Shown one piece after another: positions 43,708 to 63,018 of a DNA stretch of 64,000 nt (within the stretch, counting starts at the first letter, position 1; each line of letters starts with the position of its first letter). Below the pieces are notes generated by a model. The model made no database searches, was not told the origin of the DNA, and was given only the letters and a program-made list of their open reading frames with translations. The stretch covers positions 186,001 through 250,000 of the forward strand of contig JADZDM010000012.1 of NCBI GenBank assembly GCA_020851035.1. Reading direction: 5' to 3'. This DNA comes from Gemmatimonadaceae bacterium. GTDB taxonomy: Bacteria; Gemmatimonadota; Gemmatimonadetes; Gemmatimonadales; Gemmatimonadaceae. The translations under genes were made by a program, and so were the position numbers.

Positions 43708-43809
43708 TCGGGACTGGCGGTCTCATCTGCAGGGTGTGTGGGCGTCGTGTCGTAGCCGGCTGTCGGGGGCGCATGGACAGTGCTGCTCTCCCCGTGCGGT
43801 CGAATCCGT

Positions 43810-43815: not shown

Positions 43816-43869
43816 GCACCGTTGCTACCAGCCTCGTGCGGCGAGGCGATTCTCACCGACTTCCTGCTC

Positions 43870-44112
43870 ATGTCCCAGCTCGACACGCTCAAGACGGCTT
43901 TCGCGACGGCGCTTGGCCTGCCCCCGACCACCGAGTTCGAATCGCTCGAGTACCGCAAGATTCCGGAGTGGGATTCGGTCGCGCACATGGCGCTGGTGAT
44001 GGAGATCGAGACGGCCTTCGACATCATGCTGCCCACGGACGACGTGATCGGCCTCAGCAGCTTCGCGAAGGCGCAGGAGATCGTCGCGAAGCACGGCGCC
44101 ACGGGTGCTTGA
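43870..44112 (+). CDS. Acyl carrier protein
   Basis: An 80-residue free-standing carrier protein: helix I (LDTLKTAFATALGL), then PEWDSVAHMALVMEIETAF with the phosphopantetheine attachment Ser at S36, and helix III around VIGLSSFAKAQEIV. Acidic, right length. It does not look like the housekeeping fatty-acid ACP (no DSLDTVEL) and is followed by, and overlaps by 8 nt, a FabG-like reductase, so it is probably dedicated to this operon. Confidence 0.88.
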   Translation: MSQLDTLKTAFATALGLPPTTEFESLEYRKIPEWDSVAHMALVMEIETAFDIMLPTDDVIGLSSFAKAQEIVAKHGATGA

Positions 44113-44848
44113 GCACCGGGTCGCGCTGGTCACCGGCTCCACGCGCGGCATCGGCTGGGCGATCGCCGAGGCCTTCGCGGCCGCCGGGGCCACCGTCGTG
44201 CTCCACGGCCGCACGGCGGGTGAGGCGCTCGATGCGCGGGCGGCCGACCTCACCGTGCGCTTCGGCGTGCCGGCCCTCGCGGTTGCAGCGGACCTGACTG
44301 ACACGGCGCAGTTGCGTGCCGTCTTCCAGCAGGTCTTCCGCACGTACCGCCGGCTCGATGTCCTCGTGAACAACGCGGGTGTGCTCGAGGACGGCCTGCT
44401 CGGCATGATCCCCGAGGAGACGGTCCGTCACACGCTGGCGATCAACCTGCTGGCACCGATCCTGGCCACGCAGGAAGCGTCGCGCCTGATGGGGCGGCAG
44501 AAGTCGGGCTCGATCATCAACATCAGCTCGATCATCGGCCGCGTGGGGAACGAAGGGCAGTCGGTCTACGCCGCCTCGAAGGCGGGCGTGATCGGCCTGA
44601 CACTGGCAAGCGCGAAGGAGCTGGCACCGCGCGGCATCCGCGTGAACGCCATCGCGCCTGGCTTCATCGCCACCGACATGGTCGCCCAGCTGCCGCCAGA
44701 GAAACATGCCGAGCGGTTGCGTGGCGTGAAGATGGGTCGCATCGGGACGCCGGAGGATGTCGCGGCGGCCGTGTTGTTCCTCGCCAGCGACCAGTCGACC
44801 TACGTGACGGGGCAGGTGCTCGGCGTGGACGGGGGGATGCTGGTGTGA
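44105..44848 (+). CDS. 3-oxoacyl-ACP reductase-like SDR (FabG type)
   Basis: Expected to reduce a 3-ketoacyl chain on the neighbouring ACP to the (R)-3-hydroxyacyl form. 247 residues: TGSTRGIGWAIAEAFA at about 10-25, LVNNAGVLEDGLLGM near 89, ISSIIGRVGNEGQSVYAASKAG with Ser and YxxxK, and APGFIATDMV. Motifs intact. Start GTG 44105 overlaps the ACP gene; the end overlaps the ligase start (GTGA). Dedicated rather than housekeeping, since no other fab gene is near. Confidence 0.88.
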   Translation: MLEHRVALVTGSTRGIGWAIAEAFAAAGATVVLHGRTAGEALDARAADLTVRFGVPALAVAADLTDTAQLRAVFQQVFRTYRRLDVLVNNAGVLEDGLLGMIPEETVRHTLAINLLAPILATQEASRLMGRQKSGSIINISSIIGRVGNEGQSVYAASKAGVIGLTLASAKELAPRGIRVNAIAPGFIATDMVAQLPPEKHAERLRGVKMGRIGTPEDVAAAVLFLASDQSTYVTGQVLGVDGGMLV

Positions 44849-46260
44849 TTGCCGACCTGCGGCAGCGCGGCGCCGCGCAGGCCGTGTTCGATGGCGCAGG
44901 CGGCCGCTGGCTGGGTGCGGACGAGCTGCTGGCCCGTGCGGCCGAGTGCGCGGCGCGCATCCGTCACCGCGTGGATGCGCCTGCGCTGATCGTGCTGCTC
45001 TGCGACAATTCGATCGAGGCGCTGGTCGGCTACCTGGCCGCCTTCACGCTCGAGTGGCCGGTGGCGATGGTCGACGCCGGGATGCCGGCGGACCAGCGCG
45101 ACCGCATCCTCACGCGCTACGAGCCGGCGGTGGTGATCGGGAGTTCCGCGGAACTCGATCCCGCTGGCGTGACGCACGACGGGAGCACGGCCACGCCGGC
45201 GCTGTACTTCGCCGGGCGGCAAACGCCCCCGGTTGCGGCTGGCCTCGCGCTCCTCCTGCCGACCTCCGGCTCCACGGGGTCGCCGAAGTTCGTGCGGCTC
45301 TCGCGCACGGCCGTCGAGGCCAACGCGCGCAGCATTGCCGCGGCGCTCGGCATCGGCGAGGGGCAGCGCGCGATCACCAGCCTCTCGATGCACTACTCCT
45401 ACGGCCTGTCGGTGGTGAACAGCCACCTGATTGCTGGCGGGGAGCTCGTGCTCACGGGTGAGAACCTGCTCTCCGACGCCTTCTGGACGCTGGTGCGTGA
45501 CCAGGCGTGCACGTCGATGGCCGGCGTGCCGTACTCGTACCAGTTGCTCCGCCGGCTGGACCTGGATGCGCTGAACGTGCCGCACCTCCGGACGCTGACG
45601 CAGGCGGGCGGCCGGCTCGACCCGAAACTCATCTCGCATTTCCATGACCTCGCGGTGCGGCGCGGCGGACGCCTGTTCGTGATGTACGGGCAGACCGAGG
45701 CGACCGCGCGCATCACGATCCTGCCCGCCGCCGCGCTGCCCTCGAAGCTTGGCAGCGTGGGTCCGGCCGTGCCCGGCGGCACGTTGTGCATCGAAAACGA
45801 GGACGGCGTGGTGCTCGACGAGCCCGGACACATCGGCAGCATCGTGTATCGCGGACCCAACGTGATGCTCGGCTATGCGAGTGATGCCGCCGACCTCGCG
45901 CTCGGCGACGAGCATGGGGGTCGACTCGTGACCGGTGACCTGGGCTACCTCGATGCGGACGGCTGCCTCTTCATCACCGGCCGGTTGAAGCGGATCAGCA
46001 AGGTGAACGGCTACCGCCTGAACCTCGACGAGGTGGAGGCGCAGATTGCGCCGCACGGTGCCGTGGCCGTGCTCGGCGGGGATGACCGGATCGTCGTCTT
46101 CTGTGAGGGCTGGGACGCGGCGCGGCGCGAGGACGTGCTCGTGTCCACGGCGAAGCAGTTCCGGCTCCACCGCTCCTCGTTCGTGTTCCGCGACATCGAC
46201 CGGTTGCCGACGCTCGCGAGTGGGAAGGTCGACTACCGTGCCCTGGGAGAGCTGCTGTGA
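44845..46260 (+). CDS. AMP-binding acyl/aryl ligase (acyl-ACP or acyl-CoA synthetase)
   Basis: ANL-superfamily enzyme (471 aa) that adenylates a carboxylate and passes it to a thiol, here probably the operon's ACP. Motifs: LLPTSGSTGSPKFVRLS (P-loop, near 135), YGQTEATARI (near 281), RLVTGDLGYLDADGCLFITGR (near 356) and SKVNGYRLNLDEVEAQI hinge region, and a C-terminal SGKVDYRAL with the catalytic Lys. All catalytic parts are present. Overlaps both neighbours by 4 nt (fabG-like and luxE-like), so the three must be translated together. Confidence 0.87.
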   Translation: MIADLRQRGAAQAVFDGAGGRWLGADELLARAAECAARIRHRVDAPALIVLLCDNSIEALVGYLAAFTLEWPVAMVDAGMPADQRDRILTRYEPAVVIGSSAELDPAGVTHDGSTATPALYFAGRQTPPVAAGLALLLPTSGSTGSPKFVRLSRTAVEANARSIAAALGIGEGQRAITSLSMHYSYGLSVVNSHLIAGGELVLTGENLLSDAFWTLVRDQACTSMAGVPYSYQLLRRLDLDALNVPHLRTLTQAGGRLDPKLISHFHDLAVRRGGRLFVMYGQTEATARITILPAAALPSKLGSVGPAVPGGTLCIENEDGVVLDEPGHIGSIVYRGPNVMLGYASDAADLALGDEHGGRLVTGDLGYLDADGCLFITGRLKRISKVNGYRLNLDEVEAQIAPHGAVAVLGGDDRIVVFCEGWDAARREDVLVSTAKQFRLHRSSFVFRDIDRLPTLASGKVDYRALGELL

Positions 46261-47339
46261 GCCGCACGATCGAGGAACTGCTGGCGGCCCCGGTGTTCGG
46301 GTCGTCGCAGGCGGAGAAGGAGGCCACGCTCCTGCCGCTGCTGAACGCGCTGACGGCGCACCATGCCGCGCACTGCGCGCCCTACGACCGCCTGCTGGCC
46401 GGCACCGGGGCGACGCGCGTCGCGTCGCGGCTGGCGGATGTGCCCTGGCTGCCCGTGGGCCTGTTCAAGAGTCACGAGCTGGTGTCCGTGGGGGCGCCCG
46501 ACGTGTTCAAGGTGATGACGTCGAGTGGCACCACCGGCCAGGCCGTGAGCCGGATCATCCTCGACCAGCGCACGGCGGACCTGCAGACGCGCGCGCTGGT
46601 GCGCATCATGACGCATGTGCTCGGGCCTGACCGGCTGCCGATGCTGGTGCTCGACACGAAGTCGATCATCCGCAACCGGACGCAGTTCGCGGCGCGCGGG
46701 GCCGGCGTGCTGGGCATGATGACCTTCGGGCGGAATGCCGTCTGGGCGCTGGACGACGAGATGGACCTGGACATCCCGGCCGTCGAGGCCTTCCTCGCGA
46801 AGCACGGGAACGCGCCGTTCCTGATGTTTGGCTTCACGTTCATGGCGTGGAAGTACTTCATCCAGCGCCTGGCGGACCGCGGGCTCGACCTGTCGCAGGG
46901 CATCCTGGTCCACAGCGGCGGCTGGAAGAAGCTGCAGGACGAGGCGGTGGACAACGCCACGTTTCGTGCCCGGCTCCAGGCCATGACGGGGCTGCACCGC
47001 ATCTACAACTTCTATGGCATGGTGGAGCAGGTGGGGAGCGTCTTCCTGGAGGGCGACGACGGGTTCCTGTACCCGCCGGCCTTCGCCGACGTGATCATCC
47101 GCGACCCCGAGACGTGGGACGAGGCGCCGGTCGGCACCCCGGGGGTGATCCAGGTGCTCAGCGCCCTGCCGCACAGCTACCCGGGGCACTCGATCCTGAC
47201 GGAGGACATGGGCATCGTGCATTCGGTGGATGCGAACACCACCGGGCGCGGCGGCAAGGCCTTCACCGTGATCGGGCGTGCGCCGCGCGCCGAGCTCCGC
47301 GGCTGCAGCGACGTGCACGCGTTCGCGGCCAGCACATGA
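46257..47339 (+). CDS. LuxE-like acyl-protein synthetase
   Basis: LuxE activates a fatty acid with ATP and, with LuxC, passes it on for reduction to aldehyde in the luminescence system. 360 residues: MTSSGTTGQAVSRIILD near 83 (AMP-binding loop), FTFMAWKYFIQRL near 197, HSGGWKKLQDEAVD near 220, RIYNFYGMVEQVGSVFLE near 247. LuxE is acylated on a Cys near its C-terminus; C350 in RGCSD here is a candidate, not proved. Four-nt overlaps on both sides. No luxAB is present, so bioluminescence is not the function. Confidence 0.88.
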   Translation: MSRTIEELLAAPVFGSSQAEKEATLLPLLNALTAHHAAHCAPYDRLLAGTGATRVASRLADVPWLPVGLFKSHELVSVGAPDVFKVMTSSGTTGQAVSRIILDQRTADLQTRALVRIMTHVLGPDRLPMLVLDTKSIIRNRTQFAARGAGVLGMMTFGRNAVWALDDEMDLDIPAVEAFLAKHGNAPFLMFGFTFMAWKYFIQRLADRGLDLSQGILVHSGGWKKLQDEAVDNATFRARLQAMTGLHRIYNFYGMVEQVGSVFLEGDDGFLYPPAFADVIIRDPETWDEAPVGTPGVIQVLSALPHSYPGHSILTEDMGIVHSVDANTTGRGGKAFTVIGRAPRAELRGCSDVHAFAAST

Positions 47340-48580
47340 TCGCCCAGTCGATCGTGCCGGCCAGCGGGCCGGTGGACGTGGCCGCGACCATCGCGCGGTT
47401 CCAGGCCGACGCAGACACCTCGCTGATGCCCTTCGACGAGGGGGTGCTCGCCATCGCCGCGTCGCTGAGCCGCCGTCTCGCGACCGACGCCGAGGCCCGC
47501 ACGTTCCCGGCGCTGCAGGCGCTGGCATTCTGGATGCGCAAGGCGGAGCTGCTCCGGCTGCGCGACGCGTTCCGCCGGCTGGAGGACGCCTCGAGGATCC
47601 TGGTGCCGCGTGGCACGGTGTTCCACATCCCGCCGGCAAACGTGGACACGCTCTTCGTCTACTCCTGGTTGCTCGCGGTGCTGGCGGGCAACCGGAACGT
47701 CGTCCGGCTCTCCTCGCGCATGTCACGGCAGGGCAGCCTCCTCTGCCGGATGCTGAACGAGGAGTTCCACCAGCATCGTGATGGCCTGCTGGCGCGCAAC
47801 ACGATCATGCTGAGTTACGGGCACGACGCCGACATCTCGGCGGCGCTGTCGGCGATCTGCGACGTGCGCGTGGTGTGGGGTGGTGATGGCACGGTGAACG
47901 CGATGCGGAAGGTGCCGCTGCCGGCCCATGCCGTCGAGATGACGTTCCCCGACCGCTACTCCTGGGCTGCGCTCCAGGTGGACGCCTTCCTGGCGCTCGA
48001 CGAGGAGGCGCGCGACACGCTGGCGGACCAGTTCTACAACGACACGTTCTGGTTCGACCAGCTCGGCTGCTCGTCGCCGCGGACGGTGGTCTGGGTGGGC
48101 GAGGCGGGGCGCGGGGCGCAGGCGGCGGCGCAGTTCGGTGACGCCGTCGCCGCCCGGATCCGGGCACGTGGATACCGCGTGGACGTGGGCGCCTCGCTGG
48201 CGAAGCGGACCTTCGCATACCGCGCGGTGCTCGACCAGCCGGTGTCGCGGGTGTCATGGGTGTCGAACGAGCTCGCCGTCGCGGACCTTGCGGCGATGGC
48301 ACCGATGGATCGCGGACATCCCGGCGGCGGCTTCCTCTTCCAGCGCGTGGTGCCGGACCTGTCGGAGATCGGCGGGTTGCTGTCCTCCCGCGACCAGACG
48401 CTGGCATACTTCGGATTCACACCGGACTCGATGCGCGCGTTCGCCGCGACACTCGGGTCCCGGTCGTTCGATCGCATCGTGCCGATCGGCGAGGCGCTGC
48501 GGTTCGACCGGTACTGGGATGGCTATGACCTGCTGGCGCAGTTCACGCGCCAGGTGACGATCGGATCCTCGCAGTCGTGA
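47336..48580 (+). CDS. LuxC-like acyl-CoA/acyl-protein reductase
   Basis: An NADPH-dependent enzyme of the aldehyde dehydrogenase fold that reduces thioesters to aldehydes. 414 residues: VPRGTVFHIPPANVDTLFVYS near 88, LAGNRNVVRLSSRMS near 115, VVWGGDGTVNAMR near 183 and FWFDQLGCSSPRTVVWVG with catalytic Cys C245. The overlap of 4 nt with the LuxE-like gene fits a LuxC-LuxE complex. Ten nt later comes the PglD-like acyltransferase gene, hinting that the aldehyde or acyl product meets sugar chemistry. Confidence 0.9.
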   Translation: MIAQSIVPASGPVDVAATIARFQADADTSLMPFDEGVLAIAASLSRRLATDAEARTFPALQALAFWMRKAELLRLRDAFRRLEDASRILVPRGTVFHIPPANVDTLFVYSWLLAVLAGNRNVVRLSSRMSRQGSLLCRMLNEEFHQHRDGLLARNTIMLSYGHDADISAALSAICDVRVVWGGDGTVNAMRKVPLPAHAVEMTFPDRYSWAALQVDAFLALDEEARDTLADQFYNDTFWFDQLGCSSPRTVVWVGEAGRGAQAAAQFGDAVAARIRARGYRVDVGASLAKRTFAYRAVLDQPVSRVSWVSNELAVADLAAMAPMDRGHPGGGFLFQRVVPDLSEIGGLLSSRDQTLAYFGFTPDSMRAFAATLGSRSFDRIVPIGEALRFDRYWDGYDLLAQFTRQVTIGSSQS

Positions 48581-48590
48581 GCGGTGTGCC

Positions 48591-49244
48591 ATGCGCCTGA
48601 TCATCGTCGGTGCCGGCGGCTTCGGCCGCGAGGTGCTGCAGTACGTGCGTGACCGCGGCGTGGACGAGGTGGTCGGGTTCGTCGATGACCGCGCCGAGTC
48701 GGTGCTCGCGGCGCCGGGCCTGCCGCCCTGGCTCGGGTCCCTGGAGACGCATGTGCTGGATGCCGCTGCGCAGTACGTGATCGGGATCGGGAAGCCATCG
48801 GTGCGGGCGGCCATCGCCAGCCGGCTCGAGGCTGCGGGGGCGGTGTTCGGCTCCGTGGTGCATCCCACGGCCTACGTGCCGCCGACGGCCACGCTGGGCC
48901 GCGGCTGCGTGGTCGCGCCCGGGGCACATGTCGGGCCGTACGCCGTGCTCGGCGACCATGCGGTGCTCAACGTGCTGGCGAGTGTCGGGCATGACGCCTG
49001 CATCGGCCGGGCCACGGTGTTCTCACCGTACGCGGTGATCAACGGCGCGGCGCAGCTCGGCGACGAGGTGTTCCTCGGCACGCACGCCACCGTGCTGGCC
49101 GGCGTGCGTGTCGGCACGGGAGCGCAGGTGTCGGCCGGCGCCGTCGTCTATCGCGAGGTCGAGGCCTACGCCCTCGCGCAGGGCGATCCGGCGCGATCAC
49201 GCGTGATGTTCGCGCCTGCGGCACCGGCCCCAGATGCATCCTGA
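48591..49244 (+). CDS. pglD: PglD/NeuD-type sugar N- or O-acyltransferase
   Basis: Left-handed beta-helix acyltransferase that N-acetylates UDP-4-amino sugars in the bacillosamine route. 217 residues: N-terminal Rossmann-like nucleotide-sugar part (LIIVGAGGFGREVLQYV), then hexapeptide repeats from about 85 (HPTAYVPPTATLGRGCVV, GPYAVLGDHAVLN). The catalytic His of this family would be in NVLASVGHDACIG (H at about 127). It directly follows LuxC and precedes the PglC-like gene; its acyl donor could be acetyl-CoA or an acyl-ACP made by the upstream operon. Confidence 0.88.
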   Translation: MRLIIVGAGGFGREVLQYVRDRGVDEVVGFVDDRAESVLAAPGLPPWLGSLETHVLDAAAQYVIGIGKPSVRAAIASRLEAAGAVFGSVVHPTAYVPPTATLGRGCVVAPGAHVGPYAVLGDHAVLNVLASVGHDACIGRATVFSPYAVINGAAQLGDEVFLGTHATVLAGVRVGTGAQVSAGAVVYREVEAYALAQGDPARSRVMFAPAAPAPDAS

Positions 49245-49283
49245 GCGTTCGCCGCGCGCCGCGCGCAACGGCGCGTGCTGCGC

Positions 49284-49913
49284 ATGCTGAAGCGGCTGTT
49301 CGACCTGCTGCTGGTGCTGATCGGCGCGGTGGTCTGGGTTCCCGCGCTTGCTGTCGTGGCCGTGCTCGTGCGCACGCGCCTCGGGACGCCCGTGTTCTTC
49401 CGGCAGGAGCGCCCCGGCCTGCATGGCCGGCCGTTCATGATGGTGAAGTTCCGGAGCATGACCGACGCGCGTGACGCCAGCGGCGCACTGCTCCCGGACG
49501 CCGACCGCCTGCCGCACTTCGGACGCCGGCTGCGCGCCACCTCGCTGGACGAGTTGCCGGAACTGCTGAACGTGCTGAGCGGCGAGATGAGCCTCGTCGG
49601 TCCCCGCCCGCTGCTGATGCGCTACCTGGACCGCTACACCCCGCGGCAGCGGCGGCGGCACGAGATGAAGCCGGGCATCACCGGGCTGGCGCAGGTGTCG
49701 GGCCGCAACGCGCTTGGCTGGCCGGAGCGCCTCGAGCTGGACGTGCAGTACGTGGAACGGCAGTCGTTGCTGCTGGACATCCGCATCCTCTGGCGCACCG
49801 TCATGGCCGTCGTGCGTCGCGATGGCATCAGTGCCGCCGGCGAGGCCACGATGGCCGAGTTCACCGGGGCGCCCGATGCACCCGTGACGCCGGAATCGCC
49901 GTTGCTCCGCTGA
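49284..49913 (+). CDS. pglC: PglC-type monotopic phosphoglycosyl transferase
   Basis: It transfers sugar-1-phosphate from a UDP sugar to undecaprenyl phosphate, starting a repeat unit. 209 residues, the minimal catalytic form: re-entrant helix KRLFDLLLVLIGAVVWVP, then FFRQERPGLHGRPFMMVKFRSM, the catalytic Asp-Glu in SLDELPELLNVLSGEMS and the VGPRPLL and KPGITGLAQVSGRN blocks. GTG 49275 is a possible earlier start. The PglD neighbour makes a UDP-diNAc-bacillosamine-like donor the best guess. A second, large initiating transferase is at 54.2 kb. Confidence 0.9.
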   Translation: MLKRLFDLLLVLIGAVVWVPALAVVAVLVRTRLGTPVFFRQERPGLHGRPFMMVKFRSMTDARDASGALLPDADRLPHFGRRLRATSLDELPELLNVLSGEMSLVGPRPLLMRYLDRYTPRQRRRHEMKPGITGLAQVSGRNALGWPERLELDVQYVERQSLLLDIRILWRTVMAVVRRDGISAAGEATMAEFTGAPDAPVTPESPLLR

Positions 49914-49931: not shown

Positions 49932-51077
49932 TCAGGGCCGCGTGGCCTCGAGCGCGGCGACGGCGATGCCGGTGGCGAGCAGGTGGGCGGTGCAGCGGTG
50001 GGCGAGGGCCGACTGGTGGAGGCCATCCGCCGTCAGCAGGTCGGCATAGCCGTAGCGCTGCGCATCGATTGCTGCCGACATCCAGCCGTAGCGCCGCGCC
50101 GTGCTCACGCCGAGGGAATCCGCGACACCGGTGACGAGCGCGATGTACTGGCGGTATTCCTCCGACTCGCCCGCTCCGCGGAAACGCTGCGGGTCGAGGA
50201 GGACGACGTCGATGCCGCGTTCCTGGAGGCGCGTGATCGTGCGACGGGTGTACTCACGCACGACGTCGAACGGCAGGCGCTTGAGTGCGTCGTTGGTCCC
50301 CGTCTGCAGCACCACGAGGTCCGGCGCGTGGGCAAGGACATCGCTGTCGAGGCGCGCGTCGAGCTGGTCCGACGAGTTGCCGGGAATGCCGGCATTGAGC
50401 ACCGTGATCGTGCTGCCGGGAAAGCCCCGTTGCAGCATGCCCTGCAGCTGTGCGGGGTACGCCTCGTCCTGCGTGGTCAGGCCGGTGCCGAAGGTCGAGC
50501 TCGAGCCCAGTGCGACGATGGTGAGCGGCTGGCCCGCCTGGAGCCGCGCGGCACTTCGCACGAGGTTCTGGAAGTGCGGCAGCCGCTGGTCGATCAGCGG
50601 GCAACTCCTCGCATCGTCACCACCCATGATCGCGCCGGGCAGGGTCACGACGCGGAAGGTCACGGGTGCCCCGTTGCCGACGCGCACGTCCACCTGGTAC
50701 GGACGGGCATCGCGCGCCAGCCACCGTGGCAGGCGCACGCGACCTGTGGTGTCGGTGCGCAGGATTCCGCTCGTGATCTCGAGGGCGCCGGCGGTGGCGC
50801 TGTAGCGGACGCGGGTGCGGACGAGGGCACGACCGACGGAATCGCGGACACGCACCACCGCGGGAGCCGGAGCGTCGGCCACGGACGACACGTACTGCAG
50901 GGTCGGGGATTCCGCCGCGAGGACGGCTGGAATGTCGGTCTCAGGGCCGGCGGGGTGGCCGTTCCGGCAGCCTGCGAGGCCCAGCAGGGCGGTCAGGACG
51001 GGCAGGGTGCCGATGGCGCGGGTGCAGGGGCGCCGTCTGCCTGGCGAACGGCTGGCTGGCTCGGTGCGGAAGGACAC
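49932..51077 (-). CDS. Ig-like plus SGNH hydrolase-type lipoprotein (paralog A)
   Basis: A 381-residue predicted lipoprotein: basic n-region (SPGRRRPC), hydrophobic LPVLTALLGLAGC with lipobox Cys, an N-terminal Ig-like (Big_1-style) domain at about 55-140 (VVRVRDSVGRALVRTRVRYS, TDTTGRVRL), then an SGNH domain with GSSSTFGTG (block I Ser), GIPGNSSDQ (Gly/Asn), GTNDALKRL and the C-terminal ADGLHQSALAH (His). Full catalytic set, so an esterase or acetyl-transfer role is likely. GTG 51077 is chosen because GGAG lies 6-8 nt upstream and a -10 lies at 51121. Confidence 0.83.
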   Translation of the reverse strand: MSFRTEPASRSPGRRRPCTRAIGTLPVLTALLGLAGCRNGHPAGPETDIPAVLAAESPTLQYVSSVADAPAPAVVRVRDSVGRALVRTRVRYSATAGALEITSGILRTDTTGRVRLPRWLARDARPYQVDVRVGNGAPVTFRVVTLPGAIMGGDDARSCPLIDQRLPHFQNLVRSAARLQAGQPLTIVALGSSSTFGTGLTTQDEAYPAQLQGMLQRGFPGSTITVLNAGIPGNSSDQLDARLDSDVLAHAPDLVVLQTGTNDALKRLPFDVVREYTRRTITRLQERGIDVVLLDPQRFRGAGESEEYRQYIALVTGVADSLGVSTARRYGWMSAAIDAQRYGYADLLTADGLHQSALAHRCTAHLLATGIAVAALEATRP

Positions 51078-51115
51078 GTGCCGTGCTCCGGGAACGAGGC
51101 GATCGCTGCGCGTGC

Positions 51116-51121
51116 ATGATA
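51116..51121 (-). promoter_or_regulatory. -10 element of SGNH lipoprotein paralog A
   Basis: TATCAT on the minus strand, about 38 nt before the proposed GTG at 51077. It lies downstream of ATG 51128, so that upstream in-frame start would not be in the mRNA. This decides the start in favour of GTG 51077. No clear -35. Confidence 0.4.
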
Positions 51122-51199
51122 CGGACATGCGCAGTCGAGGGCTTCGTCGCCGCCGAGCTCAGCAATAAGCTGGCGGCGGGTCGTTCCGGGCACAAGGGG

Positions 51200-52756
51200 T
51201 CAGGCCACGTGTCGCGCGCGCTCCGGGGTGGCCTCCGCCCCCGCCACGGCCAGGACGGCCTCGGCAGGGGAGAGCTGCGGGGCCGGGGCAGCCCAGAACC
51301 GGAGGCGCTTGCCGAGCCACCGGGTGAGCGGTTCCACGACCTTCTCGTGGGCATGCAGTGCGACCACACCCGAGATCGCGACATAGAGCAGCGCCAGCAC
51401 CAGCTCCCACAGGCTGGAGCTCTCCGGTCGTCCACCGAAGAGCAGCGGACGGCCGACGACCAGGTTGCGGGCGATGATCAGGCCGGCGAGCGGGACACCG
51501 TGCAGCAGGTAGAGCGAGAAGCCGGCCCCGCCGAGCCGCTGGAAGACCGGGCGGCCGAGCCAGCGGGTGAGCGCCGAGCCAAGGCGTGCCAGTGGCGTCT
51601 GCGGCGCATCGGTGCCTGCGCGCTGCGCCGCACCGATCTCCGTCAGGCCGAGGAACAGCAGGCAGGCAATCGGGATGACGATGCCGTTGTGCATCAGCAC
51701 GTACGGCACGACGACGGTGTTGAGGATGCAGGCGACCAGCAGCGCGACGACGCCGATGGAGAGGATCACCTGTGCACGCGCGGCGATCCAGCCGGCATAC
51801 CCGCGATGCACGCGCGCGAGCAGCACCCCGACGAGGAATTCCGGGATCCGGACGAGCGGATTGGTGTGCAGCCACGAGAGCCAGTAGTCGGTGGCGGTGT
51901 GGTCCGCGTTCGACTCCCCGTGCACGAGCAGCACCACGGTGGCGACCGACAGGCTGAACGTGATGCCTGCGACGAGCCCGGCGAGCGCCGCGCGCGGCGT
52001 CAGCCTGGCGATGCGCGGACCGATCCACGGGAACAGCGCCCAGCTCGTGAGCAGCACGGTCATGGTCCACGACGGATCGTTGAGGTCCCACACGTAGGTG
52101 GGGAACCACGCCTGCTGGCCGAGCAGGTTCACGCCGATGGAGGCCGCGACGTCACCCCACGGCCGGTCACCGTGTGCGAGGATGAACTGCGGGATGCGCA
52201 GCGCCTGCGTGAGCACGAGCAGCGGCGCAAAGCGGAGGAGCCGGCTGCGCCAGAGGCTCTTCGCGCTGCGCGTCATGCCGCCATGCTCGGGGGACAGCGT
52301 GCCGACGGCCAGTGCGTAGCCGCCGAGCACGAGGAAGAGGCTCGTGCCGGCGAAGGCGAACGCGGCGAACCGCCCGAGGGCTGCAAGGATGTAGCCAGCG
52401 AGGGCCAGGATCCCGCCCTGCGCGACATAGCGGGGGGCGATGTCGGCGGCGATCGCGCCGAAGCTGGTGTGCAGCAGCACAACCCAGAGGCTCACCACCC
52501 AGCGCAGCCCGGTGATCGGGGCCATCGCGCCCTTCCGGTCGGGTCCGGCCGCGAGCCGGGGCGCCGCCGCCGCTTCGGGCGGCTGGTGCGTGATGCCCAC
52601 GGCGCGGACCGTGGGCGGCGTGAGGGAACGGCGCACCGACGGCTGGCTGCCGGTGATGCGGCGCTGCGACCCGGTGATGGACAGGGCGCGTCCGTCGGGG
52701 CGCGGCGCGGTGGACGCCTGGTTGGTCGACGGCGGCGTCTGCGTGGCCGGCGTCAT
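51200..52756 (-). CDS. Acyltransferase-3 family membrane O-acyltransferase (OafA type)
   Basis: An inner-membrane enzyme that O-acylates surface glycans with acyl-CoA-derived groups. 518 residues: a long Pro/Ser/Thr-rich cytoplasmic tail (1-75), then TM1 with GLRWVVSLWVVLLHTSFG, carrying the family's Arg and His near 85-95, and about ten more spans including RSRLLRFAPLLVLTQAL and FSLYLLHGVPLAGLII. It ends in an Ala/Glu-rich cytoplasmic tail. ATGA overlap with the upstream SGNH paralog B gene supports a two-component transferase/SGNH module, as in other bacteria with separate or fused SGNH domains. Confidence 0.87.
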   Translation of the reverse strand: MTPATQTPPSTNQASTAPRPDGRALSITGSQRRITGSQPSVRRSLTPPTVRAVGITHQPPEAAAAPRLAAGPDRKGAMAPITGLRWVVSLWVVLLHTSFGAIAADIAPRYVAQGGILALAGYILAALGRFAAFAFAGTSLFLVLGGYALAVGTLSPEHGGMTRSAKSLWRSRLLRFAPLLVLTQALRIPQFILAHGDRPWGDVAASIGVNLLGQQAWFPTYVWDLNDPSWTMTVLLTSWALFPWIGPRIARLTPRAALAGLVAGITFSLSVATVVLLVHGESNADHTATDYWLSWLHTNPLVRIPEFLVGVLLARVHRGYAGWIAARAQVILSIGVVALLVACILNTVVVPYVLMHNGIVIPIACLLFLGLTEIGAAQRAGTDAPQTPLARLGSALTRWLGRPVFQRLGGAGFSLYLLHGVPLAGLIIARNLVVGRPLLFGGRPESSSLWELVLALLYVAISGVVALHAHEKVVEPLTRWLGKRLRFWAAPAPQLSPAEAVLAVAGAEATPERARHVA

Positions 52757-53862
52757 GGTGCGGCCGTGCCGAGCATCGCGCCGACGATGCCGGTGCTCAC
52801 GAGGGTGGCCGTGCACTCGTGACCGAGGTCGGTCGGGTGCAGGTAGTCCGACGACAGGAGCTGGTCGTAGGTGTACACCTGGCGGTCGAGCATCTCGTCG
52901 TACCAGAGGAAGCGACGTGCGGTCGAGACGCCGACGTCGGCGCCCTCGGCGCGCAGCACCGACTGGAATTCCCGGTAGACACTGCCGCCGCCGAAGCCGC
53001 GGTAGCGCTGGCTGTCGAGCAGGATGACGTCGATGCCGCGTCCGCGAAGCCGTGTGAGCATGCGCCGGAGCGGCAGGCGGAGTGAATCGATCGGCATGCC
53101 GCGGATGGCCTCGATGGTGGCCGACTGCAGGAGCACCAGCTGTGGTGCGTGCGACAGCACGGCCGACTCGAGGCGCGCATCCATGTCGGGCGCCTTCGCT
53201 CCCGTCAGCCCGGCGTTGACCATCGTGATCGACGCGTCGGGGAAGGCACGGCGCAGTTGCGCCGCCGTCTGTTCGACGTAGCCCAGGCCCGGTCGCGACG
53301 CCCCCTCGCCGGCGGTCGAGCTCGACCCGTACGCGACGATCGTCAGCGGTCGTCCGCTGCGCAGCCGCGCGAGCGTGGAGTCGAGGTGCGCGAAGGGGAC
53401 GCGCAGTGAGTCGCTGAGCGGGCAGCGTTGCCGCATCGAGGAATCGCGCAGGAACTGCGGCACGGCCAGCGCGGTGAACGTGAGGCCAGCCGTGTTGCCG
53501 GCGCGCACGACCGTCCGATACATGGACGGGATGCTGAGGCGCCACGACGGCATGGTGGCGCGTCCGTCGCCATCGGTGCGTCGCACCTGCGTGAGCGAGT
53601 CACCGGCAGCGCCGACGCTGGTGAAGCGGACGCTCACGCTGGTGAGCGGCAGCCCCGCCGCATCCCGGACGACGATGCTCGGTGGCAGTGCGGCCTCGGC
53701 GTACGCGTCCGCCACCTGCGATGCCGGTGAGAGCGCCTCGACCTGTGCGGCCAGCGCATCGTTGTCGGAGGGCGCCTCGACCGGCCCGGCATCGCAACCG
53801 GCGATGACGAGCAGCAGGAACGGCCACACGGCGCGGCCGGGGAGTGTGCGGTGGATTTGCAT
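52753..53862 (-). CDS. Ig-like plus SGNH hydrolase-type lipoprotein (paralog B)
   Basis: A 369-residue paralog of the 49.9-kb lipoprotein: signal peptide PGRAVWPFLLLVIAGC with lipobox, an Ig-like domain (SIVVRDAAGLPLTSVSVRF, TDGDGRATMP), then SGNH blocks YGSSSTAGEGA (Ser) and VNAGLTGAKAPDM, and the C-terminal SDYLHPTDLGHECTA (His). The third block, GTND in paralog A, here reads QSATIEAIRG, and the block-III Asn is missing at that place. The catalytic Ser and the Asp/His remain. It overlaps the acyltransferase gene by 4 nt and is read first in that unit. Confidence 0.82.
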   Translation of the reverse strand: MQIHRTLPGRAVWPFLLLVIAGCDAGPVEAPSDNDALAAQVEALSPASQVADAYAEAALPPSIVVRDAAGLPLTSVSVRFTSVGAAGDSLTQVRRTDGDGRATMPSWRLSIPSMYRTVVRAGNTAGLTFTALAVPQFLRDSSMRQRCPLSDSLRVPFAHLDSTLARLRSGRPLTIVAYGSSSTAGEGASRPGLGYVEQTAAQLRRAFPDASITMVNAGLTGAKAPDMDARLESAVLSHAPQLVLLQSATIEAIRGMPIDSLRLPLRRMLTRLRGRGIDVILLDSQRYRGFGGGSVYREFQSVLRAEGADVGVSTARRFLWYDEMLDRQVYTYDQLLSSDYLHPTDLGHECTATLVSTGIVGAMLGTAAP

Positions 53863-54243: not shown

Positions 54244-55794
54244 GTGAGCGCGTCCAATCCACCGTCGCGGCGGCAGCGCCGCCGCGTGTCACCCGAGTCC
54301 GGCAGCACACACGCCGTCCGGGGCCCGGAGTACGACGGCGTTCCGCTGCCCGAGGTGCTGCACGCGCGCGCACCGCATGCAGTCTGGCGCCACGTCTGGC
54401 GGAGTGTGCTCCGCGTGCTGGTGCTGGTCGCGGTGGACCTCGTCACGCTCGAGGTGATGCGGATCCTGCTCTCCGCCGCGCGCGATCACGCCTGGTTCGG
54501 CGCCCGCGTCGCGTCCGAGGTGGCGGCCGTCGTCCCGGCGGGCACCGTCCCCGCGCTCCCGCTCCAGGTGGCGGTCCTCCTCGGCCTGGCGCTCTGTGGC
54601 GGTTACGTGGGTGGCGCCCGCAAGCGCCACGTGCGGAGCGTCGCGATGGGGGCCATGCTCGGCGTGCTCATGGCGGCATGGACGGACCTGTTCACGCCGC
54701 CGGCGCTCGCCCGGCTGGCCAGCGTGACGTTCGTGGGCCTCGCCATCGCGGTCACGCTGGTGGCCGTGCGCTTCGCCCTCGACCTCGTCGTGGCGCGTCT
54801 GCGACCGCGACGGAGCCGTGCGCTGCGCGCCATCCTCGTGGCGCCGAGCCGCGACCTGCGGGCCGGCCGCACGAATCCGGCGTTCGCCGACCCGACCGAG
54901 TTCCGCTTCGTCGGCGAGGTGGCCACCACCGAGATCGAACAGGCGGCGGGCCCGCTTGGTCCGACCAGCGCCATGATGCGCCTGATCGACGAGAACCGCG
55001 CCGATACCGTCGTCCTCTTCGGGCACCTCAGCGAGCCACTCGCCGAGCGGCTTGCGCGGGTGGCGGATGCGGCGGGATGCAACGTCGTGTGCCTGCCGCG
55101 CACGGTGGTGCTGCACGGCTTCGAGCCGCAGCTCGTCTTCCATCATGGCGATCCGTTGATGCGCCTGGTGCGGCCCGGCGAGCGCGGTCGCCAGCTCGTG
55201 GTGAAGCGGGCGATGGACCTCGTGATCGCCCTGCTGCTCCTGGTCGCGCTCGCGCCGCTGTTCCTGCTGATCGCGGTCGCCGTGCGCGTGACCTCACGAG
55301 GACCGGCCCTCTTCCGCCAGGTGCGTGTGGGGCAGGGCGGGCGACACTTCCACATGTGGAAGTTCCGCAGCATGGTCGCCAGCGCCGCGGAGCAACAGGC
55401 TGGCCTGCAGGACCGCAACGTCTACGGCGAGGAGCCGCTCTTCAAGATCGCGCACGACCCGCGGATCACGCGCCTGGGCACCTTCCTGCGGCGCACCAGC
55501 CTCGACGAGCTGCCGCAGTTCTGGAACGTGCTGCGCGGCGACATGTCGCTGGTGGGTCCCCGCCCGCCGCTGCCGGACGAGGTCGCGCGGTATGCCGAGC
55601 GGCACTTCGTGCGGCTCGACGTGCGTCCCGGGCTGACCGGGCCCTGGCAGGTGTCGGGGCGCAACCGGATCATCCACTTCGAGGACGTGGTCGCGCTCGA
55701 GACGGCGTACATCGCGGACTGGTCGTTTGCCCGGGATGCGGGCATCCTTCTCCGCACGCTGCCCGCCGTGATCCGGATGGACGGCGCGCTCTGA
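54244..55794 (+). CDS. wbaP: WbaP/WcaJ-type polyprenyl phosphoglycosyl transferase, large
   Basis: It starts a lipid-linked glycan by moving sugar-1-phosphate (Gal, Glc or other) to undecaprenyl phosphate. 516 residues: membrane spans between 55 and 190, a Rossmann-like region ([21 protein letters not shown]), and the C-terminal catalytic domain with [19 protein letters not shown] re-entrant helix, [42 protein letters not shown] with catalytic Asp-Glu, and [16 protein letters not shown] 54244 is the first start in frame. A separate small PGT at 49.3 kb suggests a second initiation. Confidence 0.88.
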
Positions 55795-55857: not shown

Positions 55858-58218
55858 ATGAGCACCCTCGTCGACAAGATCAGGCGCAGCCTCGAGCGCG
55901 ACAGCGACCTGCCGCTGTCCGAACGGGCCCGCAAGGGCGTCCGCTACCTGTTCGGCACGGTCCTCGCGCCCTCGTACCTCGCGGACGTGACGCGGCGCGG
56001 CGCCCGGGCGCGCACCGTCGGCCGTCCGCGCATCGTGAACGCCGGGACGATCACGATCGGCGACGACCTTGCACTCACGAGCACGTTCAGCCCGGTCGAG
56101 ATCGTGACGCAACCCGGGGCGACCATCACCATCGGCAGCGGCGTGCACGTGAACTACGGCACGTCGATCCGTGCGGCGTCCACGATCACCATCGGTGATC
56201 GCGCGAGCATCGGGCCGTACTGCATCATCGACGACACCGACCTGCTCGCGGATGCGATGCTCGCGTCGCCGATACGCATTGGCGCGTGCACCTGGCTTGC
56301 CGGTCGCGTGACGCTCCTGCCGGGCACGACGATCGGCGAGAACTCGGTCATCACGGCCGGCAGCATCGTCTCGGGCGAGATCCCGGCGAACGTCGTCGCC
56401 GGTGGCGTGCCGGCACGCGTGCTGCGCTCGCTGGCCGAGACGGCGGCGCCCGTGGCACCGGCACCGTCCAGCCGCACCGCCGTCGCGCCGCTTCGCGACA
56501 CCTACGCCACACCGGGGCTCGCGCCGCTGCGGGGGATGGTGCTCGCGGACTTCACCGTGGGCGACCTCGCCATCCGCCTTGCCGATGCCGCGGACGGCCC
56601 GGTGATGGAGGTGGTCGACGCACCCTTCTGCCAGACGACGCAGGGACTCCTCTCCGGCGCCCCCGCGGGCGCGGCGGACTTCGTGCTGGTGTGGACGCGC
56701 CCGGAACTCGCGCTGCCGGCGTTCGACCGCATCGTGCGCGGCGACGGCGCCAGCGAGGCGGACCTGCATGACGACGTCGATGCCTTCGCCACGCTCGTGC
56801 GGCGCGGCGCCACCTCGTACCGCATGGCGTTCGTGCCGACATGGGTCCAGCCGGCACACCAGCGTGGCCTGGGGCTCATCGACGCCCGGCCCGGTGGCGT
56901 GGCCTGGGCGCTGGCGCAGGCGAACGCGCGCCTCATGTCGCAGCTCGCCGATGTGCCGAACGTGTTCGTGCTGCATGCGCAGCGCTGGCACGAGGCGAGC
57001 GCGACGCGTGGCCGGTCGATGGCGAAGGGGTGGTACCTCGGCAAGGTGCCGTACTCCACCGACCTGTTCGCCGAGGTGGCGCTGGACCTGAAGGCGGCCG
57101 CCCGCGCGATCGCGGGCCAGGCGCGCAAGCTGCTGGTGCTGGACCTCGACGACACGCTGTGGGGCGGCATCGTCGGTGATGCGGGCTGGGAGAACCTCCA
57201 GCTCGGCGGGCACGACGGTGTGGGTGAGTCGTTCGTGGACTTCCAGCAGGCGGTGAAGGCGCTCACCCGGCGCGGGATCGTGCTCGGCATCGTCAGCAAG
57301 AACACCGAGAGCGTGGCGCTGGAGGCGATCGACCGGCATCCGCAGATGGTGCTGCGGCGATCCGACTTCGTGGGCTGGCGCATCAACTGGACGGACAAGG
57401 CGCAGAACATCGCCGACCTCGCCGCGGAGCTGAACCTCGGCCTGCAGTCGGTGGTGTTCATCGACGACAATCCCGTGGAACGCGCGCGGGTGCGTGAGGC
57501 ACTTCCCGAGGTCTTCGTGCCGGAGTGGCCGGAAGACAAGCTGCTCTACACGGAGCGCCTGGCCGCATTGCGATGCTTCGACTCGCCGGCCATCAGCCGC
57601 GAGGATGCGGAGCGCACCGCCCTCTACGCGGCGGAGCGGGAACGGGGCGCCGCGAAGGCGTCGGTCGGCTCGATCGACGAGTGGCTGGGGAGCCTCGGCA
57701 TCGCGGTGCACGTCGAGCCGCTGACGGCGGCCAACCTCGCCCGCACGGCGCAGCTGCTCAACAAGACGAACCAGATGAACCTCTCGACGCGCCGGCTGTC
57801 CGAGGCGGAACTGGTGGACTGGGCACGCGGCGAGGCGCGTGGGCTCTGGGCCGTGACCGTGTCGGACAAGTTCGGTTCGGCCGGGCTCACGGGCATCGTG
57901 AGTGTCGAGGCGGACAGTGCGGTGTGCCGGGTGGTGGACCTCGTGCTGAGCTGTCGCGTGATGGGCCGCCGGATCGAGCACCTGATGCTGCATCTCGCGG
58001 TGGAGTGGGCGCGCGCACGCGGGCTGTCCACACTGCACGTGACCCTGCGCCCGACCGCGAAGAACAAGCCCTGTCACGACCTGCTGCTCGCCTCCGACCT
58101 TGGCCGCGACGACAGCGGGCTGCAGTTCACCTGGGACTGCGCCACACCGTTCGCGGCGCCGGCGGGCATCGCGGTGGAGTGGATCGACGCACCGGCGTCA
58201 CCGGCCGGCGCCCGGTGA
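55858..58218 (+). CDS. Fusion: hexapeptide acyltransferase - FkbH-like HAD acyl-loading protein
   Basis: A 786-residue fusion. Residues about 55-190 are a left-handed beta helix (repeats around [31 protein letters not shown] with a typical LbH trimer core, ending GGVPARVLR). About 220-415 is the SGNH-like N domain found in FkbH proteins. HAD motif I is [11 protein letters not shown]429/D431, and the region VIVSKNTES follows. 620-750 resembles the GNAT-like tail ([17 protein letters not shown]). FkbH homologs dephosphorylate 1,3-bisphosphoglycerate and load glyceryl on an ACP. The GTG of the next gene overlaps its stop. Confidence 0.85.
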
Positions 58219-58988
58219 CGGCCGCGACCGGCGGCGCGGATGCGCAGGCGCAGCTCGCACGCTGCACCAGCGTGGGCACGGGGATCCGCATCGAGGGGCG
58301 GCTGCACGTCGAGAACCTCGGGCGGATCGCCGTGGGCGACAACGTGGTGCTGCGGTCCACGCCGGCGATGTCACACCTCGTCACCGGCCCGCACGGTGAC
58401 CTGCGCATCGGGCGCGGCGTGCAGGTCGGCCATGGCGCGGCCATCGCATGCCACGAGTCGATCGTGATCGGGGACGCGGCGCGCATCGGCCCATTCGCGA
58501 TGATCCTCGACACCGACTTCCACGAGGCCGGACGGCACGACTCGGCCGGCTCCACGGGAGCAATCCTGATCGGCGCCGGTGCGCGGCTGGGAGCCCGCGT
58601 GACCGTGCTCCGCGGTTCCACCATTGGTGACGGCGCGATCATCGAGCCGGGCAGCGTCGTCAAGGGCGAGGTGCCGGCCGGTGCGCGGGTCGCGGGCAAT
58701 CCGGCACGACCCGTGGCGGCGCACGGTGCCGCGGTGGGCCCACGGCGCGAGATCGGGATGGAGGCCGTGCTCGACGTGGTGACGCACACCTTCGGGCTGG
58801 CGGCGCGGCCGGGTGCTGACACCCCGCGCGACGGCGTGGCCGCCTGGGATTCGCTGGGGATGCTGAACCTGCTGCTCTCGCTCGAGCAGGTGTTCGGCGT
58901 GTCGGTGTCCGCCGAGGCGCTGTCGCGCGTGACGGTCGTGGGCGAGCTGCTTCCGCTGGTCGAAGGGGCGGAGGCTGTGCCGGGCTAG
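58215..58988 (+). CDS. Fusion: hexapeptide acyltransferase - acyl carrier protein
   Basis: A 257-residue protein. Residues about 12-165 are hexapeptide repeats (GIRIEGRLHVENLGRIAVG, RIGRGVQVGHGAAI, VIGDAARIGPFAMI) with the H-x-x-G style NLCH lacking but DTDFHEAG present, where the catalytic His may lie. Residues about 178-257 are an ACP: DGVAAWDSLGMLNLLLSLE, with S213 as phosphopantetheine site. A carrier domain fused directly to a sugar acyltransferase is uncommon. Together with the FkbH fusion it could take glyceryl-S-ACP to a sugar. Stop TAG is shared, in the CTAG palindrome, with the convergent wzx stop. Confidence 0.83.
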   Translation: MTAATGGADAQAQLARCTSVGTGIRIEGRLHVENLGRIAVGDNVVLRSTPAMSHLVTGPHGDLRIGRGVQVGHGAAIACHESIVIGDAARIGPFAMILDTDFHEAGRHDSAGSTGAILIGAGARLGARVTVLRGSTIGDGAIIEPGSVVKGEVPAGARVAGNPARPVAAHGAAVGPRREIGMEAVLDVVTHTFGLAARPGADTPRDGVAAWDSLGMLNLLLSLEQVFGVSVSAEALSRVTVVGELLPLVEGAEAVPG

Positions 58989-60559
58989 GCCGGCGTGTCC
59001 GGGATGACGGCGGGCGATGGTGTCTCACCGGCCCGGCCCGCCTTCACGATTGCCAGCAAGGCGCGCAGGTCGGCGATCGTCACCACCCGGATGGCCAGCG
59101 CCACCGCGACGTAGGCCAGCATGTCGATCGGGAGCCGGATGAAGCCCAGCGGCAGCATGAGCCGGTCGAGGACGAGCACCACGAGGGCCACGGCCAGCGA
59201 CTTCGCGATCGCGACCGCCGCACGCCGGTCGAGCGCCTGCCGCCCGCACAGCCAGAGCGAGACCACCGCCGTGAGGCTGATGCCGATGACCTCGGTGAGC
59301 GCCGCGCCCATCGCGACGCCGCCGACGCCGTACCAGCGCCCAAAGAGCGCGGCGAGCGGGCCGATCGCGAGGGCGCGCAGGGGGATGGCCACCACCGATG
59401 TTGCGGTCACAGCCCAGTGCCGGCCGTTCAGCACCAGCATCGCCGAGGCGATGATCGCGATGTACATCGGCATGAAGTCGAAGGCGAGCACGCGCAGCGC
59501 GGGGGCCGAGTTGGCGAACTTCGCGCCGAAGGCGAGCAGCACCAGCTCGTCGGCCGCGAGGATGATGAAGAGGGTGAACGGGATGATCATCACCATCAGC
59601 GCCTCGATGGCGCGACGCAGGATGGCGTAGGCTTCCCGCTCGCTGCGGTCGCGCGCGCGCGCCAGCAGCGGCATCATCACCCAGCTGATCAGCGGCGACA
59701 GCAGCATCGCGAGGCCGGCCAGGTTCGCCGACGCGCCGTACCAGCCGACCTCGTTCTTGTCGCTGGTGGCGAACTCCAGCGCCGCCGCAGTGAGGCGTGC
59801 ACCGATGTTCACGGCACCGGAGTTCAGGAAGTAGGGCAGGCTCGCGAGCAGCACCAGCTTCGTGGCCACCCGGTCGAAGCGGAACTCCACGTGCGCCAGC
59901 GTGCGCACCTGCGGGAGCAGCATGGCGGTCTTCACCAGCTCGGCGACGAGCAGCGGCAGCACGAGCAGTGGCAGTGACCCTTCGAGCAGGATCACCACCG
60001 CGAGGCCGGCCCCCCAGATCACCTTCGAGAGGACGTTCGCCACCGCCAGTCGCTTCACGTGGGTGGAGGCCTGGAGCAGCGCGGCCATCGAGTTGTTGTT
60101 GATCGTCGCGAGCTGCGCGAGGCCGAACACCAGCACGGCGTGCTGCACCACCGCCGGCCGGCCGGACGCACTGAGCGCGATCCACATGCCGCACAGCAGG
60201 ACGAGCGCAGCGAGCAGCCGCGCGACGAGCACCCCGCCCGCGAAGTCGGAGGCGTGCTTCTGTCGCACGGTGACTTCGCGGATGATGTAGGTGTCCACGC
60301 CGAGCTCCGCCAGCGTGAAGAATGCCGCGGAGAACGCGTCGGCGAAGTTGAATGCCCCGAACTGCGCCGGCCCCAGGTACCGCGGGAGCTGGAAGCGGAC
60401 GAAGAACGCCACGCCCCACGTCAGGATCAGCGAGCCGCCCAGCGTGACCGCATTGCGTCCCGCCACGCGGAGGTCGCGTGCGGCCGACTCCGCATGCTCG
60501 GCGGCGATCCGGGCCTGTGATGCCGGTGTGTGGGGCGCGCCGGGCGCCGGAACGTCCAC
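58985..60559 (-). CDS. wzx: Wzx-type lipopolysaccharide flippase (second)
   Basis: Polytopic membrane protein (524 aa, about 14 hydrophobic spans) of the polysaccharide flippase family: RNAVTLGGSLILTWGVAFFV near 35, RYLGPAQFGAFNFADAF near 62, ELGVDTYIIREVTVRQ near 86, and a C-terminal MurJ/Wzx-like half with LALVVLVLDRLMLPLGF. Start GTG 60559 (VDVPAPG) lies 5 nt after the GT stop. Unlike the WzxE-type flippase at 27.3 kb in motif and length. Convergent with the LbH-ACP gene, sharing a CTAG for both stops. Probably translocates the WbaP-initiated glycan. Confidence 0.85.
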   Translation of the reverse strand: MDVPAPGAPHTPASQARIAAEHAESAARDLRVAGRNAVTLGGSLILTWGVAFFVRFQLPRYLGPAQFGAFNFADAFSAAFFTLAELGVDTYIIREVTVRQKHASDFAGGVLVARLLAALVLLCGMWIALSASGRPAVVQHAVLVFGLAQLATINNNSMAALLQASTHVKRLAVANVLSKVIWGAGLAVVILLEGSLPLLVLPLLVAELVKTAMLLPQVRTLAHVEFRFDRVATKLVLLASLPYFLNSGAVNIGARLTAAALEFATSDKNEVGWYGASANLAGLAMLLSPLISWVMMPLLARARDRSEREAYAILRRAIEALMVMIIPFTLFIILAADELVLLAFGAKFANSAPALRVLAFDFMPMYIAIIASAMLVLNGRHWAVTATSVVAIPLRALAIGPLAALFGRWYGVGGVAMGAALTEVIGISLTAVVSLWLCGRQALDRRAAVAIAKSLAVALVVLVLDRLMLPLGFIRLPIDMLAYVAVALAIRVVTIADLRALLAIVKAGRAGETPSPAVIPDTPA

Positions 60560-61842: not shown

Positions 61843-62190
61843 GACGGCACGGTCTCCTCTTGCGGGCGCGGGATGCGGCTGGCGCATCCATCGGTCGACG
61901 ACTGCCGCGCGGCACAGTCGGTCACGCCGCGCTCGCCCGTCACGGGCCGGCAGACGGCGGCTGGAAGGATACGGCGACCGGGAGTGTGAAAGAAGGCGGC
62001 GGCCCCGGATATCCCGGCGGCGTGACGGGCGGGTGCGCGGTGCTGTGGCCTGCGGACCACCTCGCTCGTCTTCCTCCCGGGCGCATGTGGGCCTTATCCT
62101 TGGGGCTCGACAGGCTGCCGGCGCAGCCGGCCGATGGCAGCGCCGCCCGCAGCCGACACACCCGTTTCCCGCGTCCCCGAGTTCGCGCAC
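61843..62190. other. Divergent intergenic region between the GT and FkbM genes, 348 nt
   Basis: No gene seen. Two -10-like TATCCT hexamers point outward: minus strand 61971-61966 (leader about 120 nt to the GT start, with AGGAGA before its GTG) and plus strand 62095-62100, 30-90 nt before the FkbM-type start. An ATG at 62134 opens the same frame as the FkbM gene and would add 19 residues (MAAPPAADTPV). No clear -35 boxes. Confidence 0.45.
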
Positions 62191-63018
62191 ATGGTCAAGA
62201 CCACCGTCAAGAAACTGCTGACCTCCGTCGGCATCTTCGACGCGCTGCGCTACGGGCCGGCTTACGAGATCTTCCTCACGGTGTTCCGGCCCGAACAGGT
62301 GCGTGGCCGTGCCAGCGAGGTGGCCTTCTACCGGCGCATCCTCGGGACGATCCCGACCGGCGCGACGATCTTCGACGTCGGCGGGAACCGCGGGTTCAAG
62401 AGCGAAGTCTTCGTGCAGCTGGTGCCGAAGGTGATCTGCGTGGAACCTGACCGCTCCAACGTCGAGATCCTCCGGAAGAAGTTCCGCGGCACACCGGCCG
62501 TCACGGTGGTGGACTGCGCCGTCGGCGCGGCCGAGGGCGAGCTGATGTTCAACGTGATCGAGGCCGGCTCGGCCTACAACACGCTGAGCACGAAGTGGGT
62601 GGAATCGCTGGGCCAGGCGGACGGGAGCTCGCGGCCGGTGCTGACGCTCTCCGACCAGTACCCGGTCACCGTCGTGACGCTCGACAGCCTGATCGCGAAG
62701 TACGGCACGCCTCACTACATCAAGATCGACGTGGAAGGGTTCGAGCTCGAGGTGATGCGCGGCTTGTCGCGCCCGGTGCCGTTCATCTCGTTCGAGCTGA
62801 ACCTGCCCGACTTCCGGGGCGAGGGGGTCGAGATCGCGGAACGGCTGGCGTCGATCATGCCGGGCGTGCGCTTCAACTACTGCTCCGAGGCCGCCGCGGA
62901 CGCCTTCTCCTCGGCGCAGGACCTGAAGAGCGCCGCGTGGCTGGACGTGCGGGCGATGTGCGACCTGATCTCGACCACGTCCGCGCCGTACCTCGAGGTC
63001 TACGCACGCAATGCGTGA
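62191..63018 (+). CDS. FkbM-family methyltransferase
   Basis: SAM-dependent O-methyltransferase, often decorating sugars in polysaccharide clusters. 275 residues: class I SAM motif IFDVGGNRGFKSEVF near 58, VICVEPDRSNVEILRK near 82 with the acidic ribose-binding residue, VVDCAVGAAEGELMF near 100, and YIKIDVEGFELEVMRG near 176, which is the FkbM signature. Start: ATG 62191 (MVKTTVKKLL) preferred over ATG 62134. Substrate (sugar OH or carboxyl) unknown. Confidence 0.87.
   Translation: MVKTTVKKLLTSVGIFDALRYGPAYEIFLTVFRPEQVRGRASEVAFYRRILGTIPTGATIFDVGGNRGFKSEVFVQLVPKVICVEPDRSNVEILRKKFRGTPAVTVVDCAVGAAEGELMFNVIEAGSAYNTLSTKWVESLGQADGSSRPVLTLSDQYPVTVVTLDSLIAKYGTPHYIKIDVEGFELEVMRGLSRPVPFISFELNLPDFRGEGVEIAERLASIMPGVRFNYCSEAAADAFSSAQDLKSAAWLDVRAMCDLISTTSAPYLEVYARNA

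Follow-up and report, generated by a model that had tools for sequence, protein, structure and literature searches.

Why should a locus for glycan assembly encode an enzyme of the FkbH type, members of which have been put forward as the source of glyceryl-ACP in the tetronate and methoxymalonyl pathways (PMC7489565)? The window analysed here, 64,000 nucleotides of a Gemmatimonadaceae contig, raises this question at positions 55858–58988, where two overlapping genes, A and B, lie between the gene for a priming sugar transferase and that for a Wzx-like flippase. The priming enzyme, a polyprenyl glycosylphosphotransferase (54244–55794, plus strand; PF02397, 4e-65; TIGR03025, 325 bits against a cut-off of 295.55), ends 63 bp before gene A, with which it is likely to form one transcription unit, and the flippase gene (58985–60559, minus strand; PF01943, 1.6e-17; PF13440, 8.7e-16) is the convergent neighbour of gene B. 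We give roughly even odds (about 0.5) to the reading that the two proteins of A and B would form a module that acylates a surface glycan by way of a carrier, acting in full as set out below. Each part belongs to a known family; it is the two-gene fused layout that is rare, and no description of it was found in the open-licence library searched, in which no paper linked FkbH to O-antigen or HAD-IIIC to polysaccharide, or dealt with LbH-ACP fusion, although it may be described elsewhere.

Domain architecture of the two genes

Gene A (55858–58218, plus strand, ATG start, 786 aa) is an open reading frame with orthologues at L024, L067 and L157, in which a hexapeptide-repeat (LbH) domain is fused to an FkbH-like enzyme. 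Residues 422–743 match the FkbH family model TIGR01686 (271.7 bits, E = 8e-81), well over the curated cut-off of 146.65. Four regions can be distinguished, all on the plus strand: the LbH domain (residues ~55–190, 56020–56427; PF00132 and alignments), an SGNH-like region (~225–415, 56530–57102; model match and alignment), the HAD-IIIC catalytic domain (~422–579, 57121–57594; TIGR01681/TIGR01686 and conservation) and a GNAT-like tail (~614–764, 57697–58149; VIA-align) carrying an LSCR motif with Cys699. The AlphaFold model has a mean pLDDT of 79, and in VIA-align comparisons its residues 212–579 matched BF1531 (3slr; Z 34.2) and residues 614–764 matched GNAT proteins (Z ~14). The first-pass annotation, made from the sequence alone, had named all four regions; the LbH, HAD and GNAT parts hold, and the SGNH-like part holds by its position in the fold but not by motif, since no GDS serine motif was found in the aligned region, which reads ADF/SDF there. 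The HAD motif is D429-L-D431-D-T and the active site is intact on alignment (D429, D431, K514, D536, D537). Across 18 aligned FkbH sequences, a set that excluded the degenerate member G666 described below, D429, D431, S480, K481, N482, K514, D536, D537 and C699 were invariant. Cys699 is kept in every aligned member except G666, where the region is deleted, and may be the residue that holds the acyl group.

Gene B (58215–58988, plus strand, GTG start, 257 aa) overlaps the stop of gene A by 4 nt, GTGA; the coordinates of the pair as first read are exact. It has PF00132 hexapeptide repeats, as does gene A, in an LbH acyltransferase domain (residues ~18–167, 58266–58715; 4e-12; His103 codon at 58521–58523), followed by an acyl carrier domain (~179–254, 58749–58976; Ser213 codon at 58851–58853). 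A carrier domain with its serine at position 213 had been proposed on sight, and the predicted structure bears this out: the C-terminal domain forms four helices (182–193, 213–227, 233–237 and 242–251), Ser213 opening the second as in an ACP fold, and it matches known ACPs with a Foldseek probability of 1.0 and VIA-align Z scores of 10–11.5 (rmsd ~2 Å). By profile, the Pfam PP-binding score of 17.7 bits is weak and below the threshold of 20.8, and the L067 orthologue passes at 23.5 bits. The LbH parts of both models are of moderate confidence; for that of gene B the closest VIA-align matches were AntD and WlbB, at Z ~14.8 and an rmsd of ~12 Å, which supports the repeat fold but not its exact geometry. 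Two phosphopantetheinyl transferase genes are encoded in the window genome. A terminal module of the Pls/PosA type (adenylation-carrier-LbH), from nonribosomal peptide synthetases, was considered and rejected, TIGR02353 scoring 46.8 bits against a cut-off of 423.1 and over the LbH part only.

Recurrence of the pair and a degenerate copy

Across the phylum (395 genomes), an LbH-FkbH fusion was detected in the window genome and G032 only, and LbH-ACP likewise in these two. G032 belongs to another genus of the same family, and its genes (57% identity for A, 50–51% for B) keep the same order and the same 4-nt overlap, which argues that the pairing is not due to chance. A scan of named genomes had an overlapping pair among the matches listed in an uncultured proteobacterium MAG (G411, locus L067), and a search of the order to which G411 belongs recovered a further one in G666 (L157), so that the pair is present in at least four genomes in two phyla; no relative was found in viral contigs. 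Candidate fusions at L092, L096, L099, L117 and L131, in which tblastn had joined LbH to FkbH, were set aside once an open-reading-frame check revealed separate genes or no LbH.

A glycan-locus context accompanies the pair in three of the four genomes (the window, G032 and G411). In G032 it adjoins Wzx and glycosyltransferases, and in G411 its neighbours are an Acyl_transf_3 gene, polysaccharide export genes and glycosyltransferases. Sought next to Wzx in other genomes, as first suggested, the pair was found so placed in G032 and within a polysaccharide-export region in G411; in G666 there are no clear glycan-export genes near it. In G002, a sister species of the same genus as the window genome, the gene directly after a priming transferase of 77% identity encodes a plain LbH protein of 183 aa, 42% identical to gene B. 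The pair thus occupies the slot of an O-acetyltransferase-like gene in this relative, which would fit a change of the decorating group on the glycan encoded by the locus.

In a tree of 30 LbH domains, the four from gene A formed their own clade (support 99/97) and the four from gene B grouped at lower support (88/67). Because all gene A domains are split from all gene B domains, the A/B pair appears to have arisen once, and the simplest reading would be that it then travelled, or was inherited, as a unit.

The G666 copy (L157:11282–13971) serves as a natural experiment. Its two reading frames remain open, with the 4-nt overlap, and yet the HAD motifs have changed (T433A, SKN to VNP, K514E, DD to GA), the entire GNAT-like tail with Cys699 is missing, and gene A no longer matches TIGR01686; in gene B the carrier motif WDSLG has become WTAIG, with loss of the serine, and the LbH domain, which might have reverted to CoA donors, retains His103. 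HAD identity is 76–79% among the three intact members but 40–43% between these and G666, and LbH identity stays at 39–57%. That loader and carrier function were lost together finds its best explanation in this FkbH enzyme serving the carrier of its own pair; as one case, from a draft genome, it lends that relationship strong support, though not proof.

The wider family points the same way. An ACP lies within 1 kb in 68 of 80 related FkbH loci, against four ACP hits in the remaining 719 kb, a proportion that is somewhat circular, since these loci supplied part of the seeds for the ACP profile, although only ~9 of the 80 were used in this way. An LbH domain in the same frame as FkbH occurs in 1/80. 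The intact HAD loops, the ACP beside 68 of these 80 genes and the joint loss in G666 together support the loading of the fused carrier by FkbH, as first proposed. In G359 and in a Chthoniobacterales MAG (L080), where FkbH is unfused, the gene beside it joins a different LbH to an ACP, and these LbH domains form a clade of their own (100/100) in the tree of 30, which indicates that LbH-ACP fusion arose at least twice. The fusion of carrier and acyltransferase, which had been thought the part most likely undescribed, is thus not peculiar to this pair. Other unfused FkbH relatives have GNAT, AAC(3)-like, VOC or MaoC-SDR neighbours (named by sequence reading); at L070, L072, L073, L077, L079, L081–L083, L089 and L091 the FkbH gene is repeatedly found beside MaoC-SDR didomain or VOC (epimerase-like) genes, a hint that the glyceryl group carried on the ACP can be remodelled. 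We know of no assayed member of this FkbH-like subfamily. The combination of FkbH, ACP and a transferase recurs in bacteria of many phyla and in some archaea, so that confirming its activity would allow many loci to be annotated.

The window genome has a second, unfused FkbH (L027, G000:C20, ~8563–18037) with an overlapping ACP, whose neighbours read as MaoC-like, MBOAT-like and exosortase-like.

The proposed transfer and its alternatives

Which of the two LbH domains could act as the transferase? The first-pass annotation had left this as one of the two. All four gene B proteins share His103 with the plain LbH of G002, five aligned sequences in all, and this residue lies near the position of His115 of GAT, which we take to be the catalytic residue of that enzyme. 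At that position the four gene A proteins have L/L, C/P, V/P and I/P, and the loop is shortened or altered. The O-acetyltransferase-type histidine is thus found in gene B and not in the LbH domain of gene A; its conservation in all four gene B proteins supports an LbH transferase and narrows the choice to the carrier-fused domain as most likely the active one of the two. The gene A domain need not be inactive, since some LbH sugar N-acyltransferases (WlbB, QdtC) work without a catalytic histidine, and because the gene B LbH has N-acyltransferases of the AntD/WlbB type among its neighbours in fold, the case for a dead domain in gene A is weakened.

The reading that we favour would run as follows. 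A phosphopantetheinyl transferase would arm Ser213 of the gene B carrier. The FkbH part of gene A would take up a three-carbon acyl group, for which D-glyceryl from 1,3-bisphosphoglycerate is the likeliest candidate, dephosphorylate it at the HAD site and pass it to the carrier as a thioester, probably via Cys699 of the GNAT-like tail. The LbH domain of gene B, with His103 as base, would then move the glyceryl group to a sugar precursor or a lipid-linked repeat unit of the surrounding locus, to be flipped by Wzx; the accepting group would be a hydroxyl or, less probably, an amine. The LbH domain of gene A would mainly pair or stack with that of gene B, holding loader, carrier and transferase together. 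Of these steps, the loading of the fused carrier with a three-carbon acyl group by FkbH is very probable; that the group is glyceryl or glycerate-derived is fairly probable, and its transfer to a sugar by the LbH domain of gene B seems about equally plausible. Sequences and models establish the domain content, the intact motifs and the recurrence of the pair; we infer that the group is glyceryl, that a sugar accepts it and that the gene A LbH acts as a scaffold. More tentatively, the two LbH domains could be diverged paralogues in a mixed assembly, a silent one bringing the loader and an active one its own carrier, which would keep the acyl group within the complex all the way from glycolysis to the glycan.

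The carrier might instead hold another glycerate-derived acyl group (lactyl, methylated glyceryl or some other hydroxy acid), tailored from glyceryl-ACP before transfer by the LbH domain. The locus does encode an FkbM-type methyltransferase (62134–63018), which could methylate the glyceryl group or the sugar, unfused FkbH relatives lie beside MaoC-SDR, VOC and other acyl-modifying genes, and dimethylglyceric acid is a known glycan substituent (PMC3068675); yet no tailoring gene lies within the two-gene unit or was seen beside the pair in G032 or L067, and this variant appears rather unlikely. We hold in similarly low esteem the proposal that the gene B LbH is an ordinary acetyl-CoA-dependent sugar O-acetyltransferase, its carrier and FkbH serving a separate acceptor or enzyme and being fused for co-regulation only. 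It would account for the resemblance of the domain to O-acetyltransferases of the WcaF/WbbJ type, for the plain LbH in the same slot in G002, and for the retention of the LbH histidine in G666 after loader and carrier serine were lost. It sits poorly with a fusion conserved in four genomes of two phyla, with the independent fusion of a different LbH to an ACP beside FkbH, and with the lack of any other carrier consumer fixed beside the pair.

Less likely again is a non-glycan acceptor, a small molecule or protein being loaded in the manner of polyketide or nonribosomal synthesis. The characterised FkbH enzymes known to us all act in polyketide or related pathways, but we noticed no ketosynthase or condensation domain next to any of the four pairs, and around three of the four there are a priming transferase, glycosyltransferases, Wzx or export genes.

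Glyceryl loading onto an ACP by FkbH-type enzymes has been described in polyketide synthesis (PMC7489565; the work on OzmB is cited in PMC5318452). Gene A resembles the glyceryl-ACP synthases FkbH, OzmB and Mad7–Mad14 (HAD-IIIC, TIGR01686) in an FkbH domain that exceeds the family cut-off, intact HAD residues and an ACP partner; it differs from them in that its FkbH and the partner ACP are each joined to an LbH domain of their own, and the pair lies in a glycan locus rather than a polyketide cluster. With LbH sugar acyltransferases (WcaF/WbbJ and GAT; AntD and WlbB) gene B shares the hexapeptide repeats and a histidine near GAT His115, but unlike those that rely only on CoA it has its own acyl carrier domain. 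LpxA and LpxD are LbH enzymes that use an ACP-bound acyl donor, as is proposed for gene B, and the LpxD-ACP complexes 4ihf and 4ihh were among the matches to its carrier; in their case, however, the ACP is the free carrier of fatty acid synthesis and the acyl chain is long.

To our knowledge the Cj1295 locus of Campylobacter encodes no fused LbH-FkbH or LbH-ACP. It is comparable to the proposed module in that a surface glycan bears an acyl group derived from glycerate, dimethylglyceric acid being attached to the pseudaminic acid of Campylobacter flagellin (PMC3068675); the passages of that paper that were searched do not describe the enzymology of glycerate loading. Were the favoured reading correct, a building block of polyketide type, glyceryl-ACP, would be linked to the decoration of surface glycans by an acyltransferase that carries its own donor carrier, and the two-gene system would offer a simple test case for the attachment of glyceric acid groups to bacterial polysaccharides.

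Further putative acylation genes nearby

Upstream in the window, positions 43780–49913 encode a small ACP, a FabG-like SDR, an AMP-ligase, LuxE, LuxC, a NeuD-like LbH and a sugar transferase, suggesting a second carrier-based module for another acyl decoration. These are followed on the minus strand (49932–53862) by an acyltransferase-3-like membrane protein flanked by two secreted SGNH-like proteins, possibly a periplasmic acylation set. Just past the window (G000:C12:253280–254334; L004, L026) lie two adjacent minus-strand LbH genes, of which the first kind encodes a DSHFH motif and the other lacks the histidine, a possible second active/silent LbH pair of the locus.
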